Shown here piece after piece: positions 24,563-29,348 of a stretch of DNA of 39,038 bases (within the stretch, counting starts at the first letter, position 1; each line of letters opens with the position of its first letter). The notes under the pieces were generated by a model. That model did no database searches. It saw only the letters and a list, made by a program, of their open reading frames with translations, and was not told the DNA's origin. This DNA comes from an uncultured Lachnospiraceae bacterium. GTDB lineage: Bacteria > Bacillota > Clostridia > Lachnospirales > Lachnospiraceae. A program made the position numbers and the translations under genes. Where the stretch lies: positions 1 to 39,038 of the forward strand of contig CAMVDF010000002.1 of the NCBI GenBank assembly GCA_947166195.1. The letters are read 5' to 3'.

Positions 24563-24730
24563 CGTAATCCTGTTGCAACTCTACTCTCATCTGCTTCATC
24601 TTCGATTTCTTGTTTTTTACAATCAACATAGACTTTCTATTTTTCTCCACCCGGGTTTTCATAAATCACTTCAAGATATACTCTCAATGTTTGTTGACTT
24701 TCCCCCTTCCCTGATATATCATAAAAAAGA

Positions 24731-24818
24731 AGGCATTACCGAGTAAACGGTTCGCCTTGTTTTATGGTTTCAAAGAAAGCAACCTAAACCTTGGCTTGGC
24801 GGTTGCTTTCTTTCGTTT
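24731..24818 (+). ncRNA. Putative short RNA from the element's plus-strand promoter (copy B)
   Basis: TTGACT (24694-24699)-N17-TATCAT (24717-24722), leader GGCATTACC..., 13-bp hairpin followed by a T-rich run. Confidence 0.35.
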
Positions 24819-24860
24819 TGTGGTTGTATCTGATAATGACCCTTTCTTCAGATTTCCCAT
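24762..24860 (-). pseudogene. 32-aa internally deleted version of the small TM peptide (MGNLKKGSLSDTTTKRKKATAKPRFRLLSLKP)
   Basis: First 10 aa identical to the 54-aa peptide at 28053-28217; TM core missing. Confidence 0.55.
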
Positions 24861-26065
24861 AATGATCGCTCTTTTATGAATTTAACTACAGTCTCTGATC
24901 CTTTCCCATCTTCAATAATTCCGCATTTTTCAAAAAGATCATCGAGAGATCTGATATATGTACCTTCATCAAATATGCTTATATTATTGAATAACTCTTC
25001 CTGTGTTTCAGCCATTGGAAACGGGAGTTTTTTCATATCCCACAGGAGTTTTCCCCTCTCTCCTTCATAGTCAGCATAATCATAGCAATACAGGAACACC
25101 GGGATCTTCATCACAGCCGCATCAAAGGCAGCGCTGCTGTAATCGGTAAGAAATGCATCACATCCGGCAAGGATCTCATACATATCATCAACCGTACTTA
25201 CATCTATCACCCTTTCATGATGGTCATCATTTTTTATGTTTCTTGCAACAAGCTGTGGATGAAGACGCAGGAACACATACCATGTACCTCCAAACCTTTT
25301 TTCAAGTGTTTCTACCATACGGGAATGATCAATGATCCCACCGTCGTTATGTATGGCTCTGTCCGTCTCCTGACTGCCTCCGCGAAATGTCGGTGCATAC
25401 AACATAAACCTTGCGTCTTTATCAAGCCCGAATTTTTCTCTCAGTCTCTGCCTGTCTTCATCTGTCCTGTTTACAAGAATATCGCATCTGGGCGACCCGG
25501 ATCTTATAGTCTTTCCCTCATACAGAGAGCCTGTTTTTAATGTTTTGTCATACCAGTCCGAGTTAGAAATCCAGTAATCCACCATATCCGAATCATGCTT
25601 TGATACCAGATATGCTATTTTCGAAAAGGATTCTCCTCTGTCAAGGCATGTCGGCTTAAAACCCAATCTTGCATGCCAGGTCTGTATATATATCTGTCCT
25701 TTTCTCTTTCTGACCTCAAGCTGCTTTCTGCTGTTGTCTATCCAGAAACGAGCCGTAGTCAGATGAAATGCTCTGTTGATGAGAGTATTCTTCACCTTGC
25801 AAATCTCTCGAGGGAAGTCTTTTCCCATATCATTTACAAGCCAGACTAATTCCCATTTTTCAGGATCTGAACCGTTTTTATTATCCCGAGCAAGTTCAAG
25901 TGCTATGTACTTTGGATTACAGGTGAAACCTGTGGTTCCCTCTATCGTTGTAAAAACTATCTTATTTTTTTTTATAGGAAAAAACCTGGATAAATAAAAC
26001 AGAATACTCTGTATCTTTGCCGAAAAAAGCCTTTTTCGGATATAACTGCTTTCAACCCGGCTCAT
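24848..26065 (-). CDS. CDP-glycerol:poly(glycerophosphate) glycerophosphotransferase-family protein (TagB/TagF-like)
   Basis: KKNKIVFTTIEGTTGFTCNPKYIALEL, YIQTWHARLGFK, RFMLYAPTFRGG, DAFLTDYSSAAFDAAVMKIPVFLYCYD. Start set at MSRVES (26065), immediately after the upstream gene's TGA; ORF track extends to 26140. Confidence 0.9.
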   Translation of the reverse strand: MSRVESSYIRKRLFSAKIQSILFYLSRFFPIKKNKIVFTTIEGTTGFTCNPKYIALELARDNKNGSDPEKWELVWLVNDMGKDFPREICKVKNTLINRAFHLTTARFWIDNSRKQLEVRKRKGQIYIQTWHARLGFKPTCLDRGESFSKIAYLVSKHDSDMVDYWISNSDWYDKTLKTGSLYEGKTIRSGSPRCDILVNRTDEDRQRLREKFGLDKDARFMLYAPTFRGGSQETDRAIHNDGGIIDHSRMVETLEKRFGGTWYVFLRLHPQLVARNIKNDDHHERVIDVSTVDDMYEILAGCDAFLTDYSSAAFDAAVMKIPVFLYCYDYADYEGERGKLLWDMKKLPFPMAETQEELFNNISIFDEGTYIRSLDDLFEKCGIIEDGKGSETVVKFIKERSLWEI

Positions 26066-27963: not shown

Positions 27964-27992
27964 TTGACTTTTTGGCTTCATTATAATATATT
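27964..27992 (+). promoter_or_regulatory. Sigma-A-like promoter for putative antisense RNA
   Basis: TTGACT (27964-27969)-N17-TATATT (27987-27992); TTGACT-to-leader distance conserved in copy B (37 vs 38 bp). Confidence 0.55.
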
Positions 27993-27999
27993 TTAAGAA

Positions 28000-28090
28000 A
28001 GGCATTACCGAGTAAACGGTTCGCCTTTGTGATTAGCTACAAAAGAAAGCAACTAACCTTTGGCGTGGCGGTTGCTTTCTTTCATTTTGT
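28000..28090 (+). ncRNA. Putative short antisense RNA convergent with the 54-aa peptide gene
   Basis: Starts at AGGCATTACCGAGTAAACGGTTCGCC; ends in hairpin AAAGAAAGCAAC...GTTGCTTTCTTT + TTTCATTTTG. Confidence 0.45.
28042..28082. terminator. Bidirectional terminator-like hairpin (12-bp stem), also encoding the C-terminus and stop of the small peptide
   Basis: AAAGAAAGCAAC (28042-28053) / GTTGCTTTCTTT (28071-28082), T-rich on both sides. Confidence 0.65.
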
Positions 28091-28217
28091 GATTCTTTCT
28101 GTCCTGGATCCTGAAAACCACTGCAAGAACAAGTCCCGCAACAGATGCTATCGATCCAAGTACAGTAATTAAACTCACTTGACTACTTGATAATGACCCT
28201 TTCTTCAGATTTCCCAT
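28053..28217 (-). CDS. 54-aa single-TM, basic-tailed small peptide (type I toxin-like or leader peptide)
   Basis: MGNLKKGSLSSSQVSLITVLGSIASVAGLVLAVVFRIQDRKNHKMKESNRHAKG; AGGAG 8 nt before ATG at 28217; ORF-track start at 28235 lacks this spacing. Confidence 0.7.
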   Translation of the reverse strand: MGNLKKGSLSSSQVSLITVLGSIASVAGLVLAVVFRIQDRKNHKMKESNRHAKG

Positions 28218-28307
28218 AATGATCACTCCTTTCATACTGCATGGGAGTTCTCGGATAAATCCGGCAAAAAGGCGAACCGCTTACCGTTTATGGTAATGCC
28301 CAATTTT

Positions 28308-28336
28308 ATTATAGAACATTTGTTCGATAAGGTCAA
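28308..28336 (-). promoter_or_regulatory. Near-consensus sigma-A promoter of the small peptide gene
   Basis: TTGACC (28331-28336)-N17-TATAAT (28308-28313); expected start ~28301 at GGGCATTACC. Confidence 0.75.
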
Positions 28337-28556
28337 GTCTCCCCGTCATCTTTTGTCATAGCTCCGCCATCCGCACCTTTTCTTCGCAAAAAAGTGCGCC
28401 CGTTTCGAATTATGTCGGATCGGAATCACCGCGCGGCATGGCAGCTGCGGTTTTTCTTCACTTCATGAAAAAGCTGTTTGAATGCCCTATAATAATATCG
28501 GAGTAAAATGGTACAAAATGAAGACCGGAAGAGATTTCTTCAAGCTCATCCAATCC

Positions 28557-29348
28557 TCATTCCGTTCCATGCTTCACCACCTCCACCTCATCGGCGGAAA
28601 ATTCCATCCTTGCGATGGTGTTTATCATGGGGAGGGATGTGTAGACCTTTCTGCGGACAGGATCAACCTTTTCCACTATGAAGATCTGTCCGCCGTACAC
28701 TTCATCTTCACCGGCTGTGCTCACAAACCTCACTGTGTCACCCGGATGGATGCCTATGTCTATGTCGTCAATGAACGGCTTTGAAGCTTCGTCCTTTTTT
28801 TCCATGCTTTCCCTGATCCATGCGATCGGAGGATCATCATCGGTCCAGAGTCCGAACTTGAGCTTCCTTTTTTTTCCAAAAAGCTCTATCTCCACTATGG
28901 CTCTGCGGCGCATGACATCAAGCTTTGTGATATGGCTGCTATATTTTTCGAGCGGGCCTATGAGTTTTTCGATCCTTCCGCTTGTGGATCTTTTGATATA
29001 GGATACCCGCATGACACCCTGGTCAAGGAGGCTTTCAAGAAAATCCTCATCCTCTTTTCCCACAGGCAGGAATGTGATCTCTCCTTCCTTTTCCCTGGAA
29101 CCGAGGACTCTCGTAAACTCCGGTATTCTTTTTGCTGTCCGGAAAACCTTTTCGGGTGTATCGGTCTCCACAAAAAAATAACCGGGAAAGAAATGATGGA
29201 GGAATATCCGGCCTTTTCCATCCTTTTTTCGAACATCTTCATACAGCGGAATGAAGCATCTTTTGCAGTCTTCCGGATCCGTCAGCTTTTTCATCAGTTC
29301 GGAGACATTTTCCTCATTTCCGCTCCGGGTCTGCACCACGTACCACAT
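28557..29348 (-). CDS. loaP: NusG-like specialised antiterminator (LoaP-like)
   Basis: MWYVVQTRSGNEENVSELMKKL...FIPLYEDVRKKDGKGRIFLHHFFPGYFFVET (NGN domain); C-terminal KOW-like HPGDTVRFVSTAGEDEVYGGQIFIVEKVDPVRRKVYTSL. Confidence 0.8.
   Translation of the reverse strand: MWYVVQTRSGNEENVSELMKKLTDPEDCKRCFIPLYEDVRKKDGKGRIFLHHFFPGYFFVETDTPEKVFRTAKRIPEFTRVLGSREKEGEITFLPVGKEDEDFLESLLDQGVMRVSYIKRSTSGRIEKLIGPLEKYSSHITKLDVMRRRAIVEIELFGKKRKLKFGLWTDDDPPIAWIRESMEKKDEASKPFIDDIDIGIHPGDTVRFVSTAGEDEVYGGQIFIVEKVDPVRRKVYTSLPMINTIARMEFSADEVEVVKHGTE

Follow-up and report, generated by a model that had tools for sequence, protein, structure and literature searches.

Convergent RNAs with mirrored leaders form a likely type I toxin-antitoxin-like module in Lachnospiraceae

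The locus and its features

The window is the whole 39,038-nucleotide stretch analyzed here, positions 1 to 39,038 of contig CAMVDF010000002.1 from an uncultured Lachnospiraceae bacterium whose genome assembly is fragmented (271 contigs) and 88% complete. On the minus strand there is encoded a short membrane peptide, a putative toxin, and the plus strand opposite has its own promoter for an antisense RNA ending at the same terminator. The features are as follows.

28308..28336, minus strand: toxin promoter TTGACC-17-TATAAT, matching the consensus at 11 of 12 positions
28271..28300, minus strand: sense mirrored leader GGCATTACC-N12-CGGTTCGCC, the 5' end of the toxin mRNA (exact sequence match)
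28275..28281, minus strand: leader element AGCGGUU, complementary at 6 of 7 positions to the terminator 5'-arm AACCGCC (covariation, 82 loci)
28225..28248, minus strand: hairpin ACUCC/GGAGU sequestering the Shine-Dalgarno (SD) sequence (fold prediction)
28226-28230, minus strand: SD sequence AGGAG, 8 nt upstream of the 54-aa open reading frame (ORF)
28053..28217, minus strand: putative toxin ORF P0001, 54 aa, with one transmembrane (TM) segment and a basic tail
28067..28073, minus strand: AACCGCC, in the sense 5' arm and loop of the terminator, partner of the leader element (covariation)
28041..28083, both strands: shared two-way intrinsic terminator, arms 28041-28053 and 28071-28083
27964..27992, plus strand: antisense promoter TTGACT-17-TATATT, matching the consensus at 10 of 12 positions
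28001..28025, plus strand: antisense mirrored leader GGCATTACC-N7-CGGTTCGCC, that is GGCATTACCGAGTAAACGGTTCGCC (exact sequence match)
28000..28095, plus strand: antisense (putative antitoxin) RNA of about 95 nt (covariance-model match 27994-28085)
24694..24875, plus strand: degraded second copy of the module, in the same window

The first-pass annotation, made from the sequence alone, had proposed both promoters, the same two 9-mers at the start of both transcripts, and a 54-aa one-TM ORF with a good ribosome-binding site and a shared hairpin. All of this holds: the promoters are the top two among 10 promoter matches in the 3.5 kb scanned, and the leaders are exact. The degraded copy was absent from that annotation. 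The window leader pair has an alignment score of 39, against a mean of 17.7 and a maximum of 27 in 200 dinucleotide shuffles of the sense region. In the predicted fold of the window mRNA the SD has an unpaired probability of about 0. The C-terminal ESNRHAKG of P0001 is encoded within the terminator hairpin, whose antisense loop holds a CUUUGG U-turn, and complementarity between the antisense RNA and the toxin mRNA covers the 3' part of the latter, last codons included.

Relatives and distribution

A search of related genomes for the leader 9-mers had been suggested with the first-pass annotation. Among 48 genomes of the genus the exact pair is found in the source genome only; the layout itself recurs when a covariance model is used. 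The window peptide as a query has no clear relative in the 99 relatives, IMG/VR and GTDB contigs searched, and the exact leader together with the 54-aa peptide at close identity is again confined to the source genome. The entry point to the relatives is a lenient family search, giving weak matches that include some small ORFs with the same layout. By eye, the sense strand of these relatives carries a promoter, a GGTGTTACC...GCGGTTCGCC leader, an SD and a TM peptide whose end, ...KSNRTDQS, lies within the terminator; the other strand carries a promoter, a GGTGTTACC...ACGGTTCGCC leader and the same terminator.

A first covariance model of the antisense RNA (R1) matches 141 of 397 genomes of the family at E ≤ 0.1, and with a refined 72-sequence model (R2) at E ≤ 0.001 matches extend to the order (45 of 246 genomes) and the phylum (9 of 250). 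Some weak matches to the models are not genuine; two phylum-level matches (L125 and L126) look like plain terminators and are rejected as relatives. About 140 loci were inspected, and 136 loci form the set scored for mirroring. The module anatomy recurs in about 80 loci of many genera, which excludes a chance origin of the window layout. Conservation of the TM peptide across homologous loci is of a particular kind: TM peptides lie opposite the antisense RNA in many loci, and they are of several unrelated-looking types, including the SNR-type (that of the window), a 30-aa MSDFEMLSIVLMILAIIVTILVAYINHTKK-type, a MLTISDLIAVLSLC...-type and others. A database scan for SNR-type peptides finds 66 loci, mostly in gut and rumen Lachnospiraceae metagenome-assembled genomes, some of which have several copies.

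Plasmids and phages searched with one relative gave no matches, and neither did IMG/VR searched with aligned relatives, so there is no sign of linkage to mobile elements. At two loci (L052, G402a; L059, G414a) adjoining ORFs resemble type II toxin-antitoxin genes, YoeB-like and PIN/VapC-like, by eye and without support from a family search.

Conservation of the promoters and the antisense RNA

On the sense side, where the promoter is sigma-A-like, the best promoter match averages 8.8 of 12 positions against 6.3 in shuffles, with at least 9 of 12 in 56 of 88 loci; on the antisense side the figures are 10.1 against 6.8, with at least 9 of 12 in 83 of the 88. The antisense hairpin and terminator covary, with 95.4% of cells paired and two-sided changes in 20 of 22 pairs over 72 sequences, in an alignment that was itself fitted to the structure. 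A U-turn motif YUNR is present in the antisense terminator loop of 132 of 137 loci (shuffle maximum 111) and in the sense loop of 93 (shuffle maximum 85).

No Rfam family exceeds its gathering threshold in the window. SpF25 as an identity is rejected, at 30.2 bits in a relative and 20.3 in the window against a threshold of 48; pT181 ctRNA and the other Rfam candidates are also below threshold, and the Rfam matches rest largely on the terminator.

The peptide

The SNR-type peptides are under purifying selection, as judged from relatives alone, the window ORF itself being single-copy: over 50 related sequences, the part before the terminator has a pooled pN/pS of 0.31 and a median of 0.27. The window peptide fits the general description of a type I toxin, being small and hydrophobic, under 60 aa, with one TM segment and a charged C-terminus. 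The first-pass annotation recognized no family for it, and that holds, as none of the peptides tested reaches a curated cut-off in Pfam, NCBIfam, PHROGs or the PDB. There is no Pfam or NCBIfam match to the Fst/Ldr sequence, and P0001 has no PXXXG motif. The Clostridioides difficile type I toxin family NF047374 does not match P0001 and matches a relative only weakly (17.9 bits, cut-off 60).

Several SNR-type loci (L037, L039 and similar) have a short upstream ORF with a better SD that overlaps the toxin start, with an ATGA-type overlap in L037. This possibly indicates translational coupling reminiscent of mok/hok.

The two leaders of a locus diverge together

The mirror score is 24 or more in 80 of the 136 loci, and in 35 of 69 loci the mirrored leaders are significant against shuffles at p ≤ 0.005. 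Among the 80, with one locating procedure used for all, the fit of the cognate antisense leader is equalled by a median of only 1.5% of the non-cognate ones. Where strongly different leaders are present within one genome, 11 of 12 comparisons favor the cognate partner. One position, that between CGGUU and GYCC, has an identical base in the two leaders at 47 of 50 loci, compared with a shuffle mean of 17.9 and a maximum of 32. Of the 66 extra SNR-type loci, 56 are testable; most of these show mirrored leaders on inspection by eye, and 26 are at p ≤ 0.01 in a broader and noisier test. The shuffle tests take no account of relatedness, and 56 of the 136 loci are below the mirror threshold, with at least a dozen resembling orphan antisense RNAs. 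Computationally, the two leaders of one locus are shown to diverge together.

One less likely explanation of their likeness is that they are identical 5' elements, either stabilizing hairpins or the site of one host RNase or protein, with no relation to fold-back. Both leaders do fold as 5'-terminal hairpins and the antisense hairpin covaries. Against this, the matching is locus-specific even within single genomes of mixed leader types (G402, G329, G112), which one trans-acting factor would not demand.

A second proposal is base pairing between the leader of the toxin mRNA and that of the antisense RNA, the 5' arm of one with the 3' arm of the other, as an equivalent of DRa/DRb in par. The leader is a near-palindromic hairpin, and the window leaders can cofold. 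We consider this unlikely. Cofolding energies are no better for cognate leaders (-3.4 kcal/mol) than for non-cognate ones (-3.1 kcal/mol, p = 0.10), and direct-repeat similarity, the complementary kind, is about 20 versus about 30 for mirrored similarity (means over 88 loci 20.4 and 29.7; window 15 and 39). Mirrored leaders cannot act like DRa/DRb because mirroring makes the two RNAs alike, not complementary.

A third is that mutation alone, by template switching between short inverted repeats, homogenizes the leaders without selection. Template switching can in principle correct inverted repeats about 270 nt apart. We regard this as very unlikely, in that identity does not extend past the arms into the loops, where sense and antisense leaders differ systematically, and the arrangement is maintained across many genera.

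Pairing of the leader with the terminator and with the read-through tail

The toxin-mRNA leader GGCGGUU covaries with AACCGCC of the terminator 5' arm. Over 82 loci there are 528 Watson-Crick pairs out of 574 and 12 two-sided changes, where the maxima in 20,000 shuffles are 518 and 9; when distinct combinations alone are counted, p is about 0.001. Each heptamer was anchored on its own consensus, as model columns are unreliable with varying stem lengths. Covarying examples are GGUGGUU/AACCACC (the G414 loci and L130), GGCGAUU/AAUCGCC (L142), GGCGGUC/GACCGCC (G451), AGCGGUC/GACCGCC (L175) and GGCGGCU/AGCCGCC (L163). Between G329a and G329b, the sense leader and the terminator are altered and the antisense leader is unchanged. 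The antisense leader covaries only weakly with its own terminator arm. When the mature mRNA is folded, the terminator hairpin wins and the probability of the leader-terminator helix is 0, so the pairing is limited to a co-transcriptional stage or to an opened terminator.

A second pairing is available to RNA that reads through. Because the antisense leader mirrors the toxin leader, a read-through toxin mRNA has a 3' end complementary to its 5' end and can form a panhandle. For the window this panhandle is 10 + 18 bp at -43.2 kcal/mol and is present in the predicted minimum-energy fold; over loci, the duplex averages -40.6 kcal/mol for cognate and -25.8 kcal/mol for non-cognate leaders. The complementarity is an automatic consequence of mirroring, and the sense leaders in the energy comparison were located using the cognate antisense leader. 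Of the long pairings, the locus-specific mirror preserves only that of the leader with the 3' tail of read-through toxin mRNA. The first-pass suggestion that the leader folds back on its own 3' end in a read-through mRNA thus gains support from the cognate panhandle and from the covarying leader-terminator pairing, which is additional to it.

Genomic context

Around the window module lies a cluster of polysaccharide or teichoic-acid-like type, with an ispD-like cytidylyltransferase and a CDP-glycerol glycerophosphotransferase. Two neighboring features belong with this context.

28557-29348, minus strand: LoaP-like NusG paralogue, in a polysaccharide/glycerophosphate polymer cluster (NF033641, 108.5 bits, below the 125-bit cut-off)
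about 28360-28400, minus strand: stable hairpin GCGCACUUUUUUGCGAAGAAAAGGUGCG with UGCG in the loop, -16.3 kcal/mol, between the LoaP-like gene and the toxin promoter

As an alternative, the first-pass annotation offered a leader peptide or attenuator serving the ispD-like operon downstream (here the ispD/glycerophosphotransferase operon), on which the adjacent LoaP-like protein might act. In its favor, the LoaP-like gene is directly upstream, the terminator precedes ispD, and the window leader has a UUCG, LoaP being known to act via a UNCG hairpin (PMC12691694). The wider comparison leaves it unsupported and very unlikely. Relatives adjoin unrelated genes, identified from sequence by eye as rimP-like, deformylase-like, transposase, MATE-like and others; the leaders do not conserve the UNCG, having A, U or G at that base elsewhere; and an attenuator has no need of a dedicated, conserved antisense promoter. 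If LoaP is recruited for the downstream operon, the hairpin at about 28360-28400 is a better candidate than the leader UUCG. As a further speculation, antitermination by LoaP might make the two inserted terminators tolerable to the operon.

A degraded copy and orphan antisense RNAs

The copy at 24694-24875 retains an antisense promoter TTGACT-17-TATCAT, the terminator, a 25-nt leader identical to that of the intact copy, and ten residues from the start of the peptide (remnant MGNLKKGSLSD...). What it has lost is the TM segment along with the promoter and leader of the toxin mRNA. Strong pairing is nevertheless predicted between its antisense RNA and the intact toxin mRNA, at -80.6 kcal/mol versus -112.9 for the cognate RNA. 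Such orphan antisense RNAs, with the toxin ORF missing or broken, are seen at 24694-24875 and at G161e, G192, G244c, G325, G366, G112 and others, and in 12 of 69 loci no TM ORF qualifies. Such loci may represent modules in decay or antitoxins that have been kept. One locus (L150, G078:C1:68600-72300) is a tandem array, with five antisense RNA matches of the group inside 2.2 kb of one genome.

Proposed mechanism

The first-pass reading as a type I toxin/antisense module is supported by conservation, in many loci, of the promoter and leader on each strand, the terminator and a TM peptide; toxicity and antitoxin action are inferred. The locus is likely a chromosomal, convergent type I toxin-antitoxin-like module of an apparently undescribed group. 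The computational analysis shows the anatomy, its conservation, the co-divergence of the leaders, the covariation and the selection on the peptide. Antisense control of the toxin is strongly implied as an inference, without expression data, and the function of the fold-back is likewise inferred.

In the proposed mechanism, one promoter would give a short mRNA for the membrane peptide with its ribosome-binding site folded away, and the facing promoter would give the antisense RNA of about 95 nt. The common two-way terminator would end both RNAs and so leave their 3' parts fully complementary. The U-turn (YUNR) of the antisense terminator loop would start a loop-loop kissing interaction, leading to duplex formation, RNase attack and silencing of the toxin, as inferred from the anatomy and from par/fst. 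Duplex silencing seems the likeliest mode, again by inference, because the two RNAs are complementary over the 3' part of the mRNA and a U-turn loop suits kissing. The mRNA leader GGCGGUU may fold back onto the terminator 5'-arm AACCGCC, the step that covariation supports, and that helix would compete with the terminator and could favor read-through. By analogy with hok and AapA, the panhandle would be a silent full-length form of the mRNA.

A bolder reading, which we hold less likely than not, is that this is a widespread Clostridia type I class in which the leader of the antisense gene doubles as a fold-back element of the toxin mRNA. Read-through, aided by pairing of the leader with the nascent terminator arm, would append the complement of the 5' leader and lock the mRNA, and several unrelated toxin peptides would have adopted the arrangement.

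About one-third of the sampled genomes of the family have a model match, several with multiple copies; the peptides tested are below Pfam and NCBIfam cut-offs, the RNA is absent from Rfam, and the arrangement is without description in the open-access literature searched. If real, the group would add a large chromosomal toxin-antitoxin class to a poorly characterized part of the gut microbiota, and would offer a compact, testable case of a regulatory RNA in which evolution must keep the two strands as mirror images of each other. The covariance model also detects short membrane peptides that are otherwise unannotated.

Comparison with known systems

The LoaP-controlled leaders (dfn, mln) share with the window an adjacent LoaP-like gene and a terminator ahead of a biosynthetic operon. 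They differ in that the UNCG hairpin is not conserved in the window group and the module occurs away from such operons. Among type I systems, CD2517.1-RCd8 of C. difficile and its relatives are similar in being from Clostridia, with a convergent antisense RNA and membrane peptides of 50-53 aa (PMC6563280); the main text of that review contains neither "leader" nor "direct repeats". The general type I expectation of an overlapping antisense gene with its own promoter is met, in silico only.

The par/fst systems (par_pAD1, parEF0409, SprA1/SprA1AS) share convergent promoters, a two-way terminator and a small membrane peptide (PMC7472228). RNA I of par_pAD1 hides its SD in the 5'-SL (PMC7472228), and the window, the only locus for which this likeness is drawn, has an SD-sequestering hairpin as well. 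Kissing through a U-turn terminator loop belongs to par/fst (PMC7472228) and is inferred for the window group, where the U-turn is mainly in the antisense loop. The par direct repeats DRa/DRb make the two RNAs complementary near the toxin start, whereas the repeats here are inverted and both RNAs start alike. Membership in par/fst was tested on the direct repeats and on the Fst/Ldr peptide family, and is rejected with neither met.

With hok/Sok and AapA/IsoA the module would share long-distance 5'-3' pairing in the toxin mRNA that yields an inert full-length form (PMC6733600). The partner differs: here it is either the terminator arm or, once the RNA has read through, the stretch complementary to the antisense leader. 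There is no sequence kinship, and the antisense RNA of the window group is convergent at the 3' end. The module does meet the hok-like criterion of a covarying 5'-3' pairing, which by analogy we take as a likeness of mechanism and not of descent.
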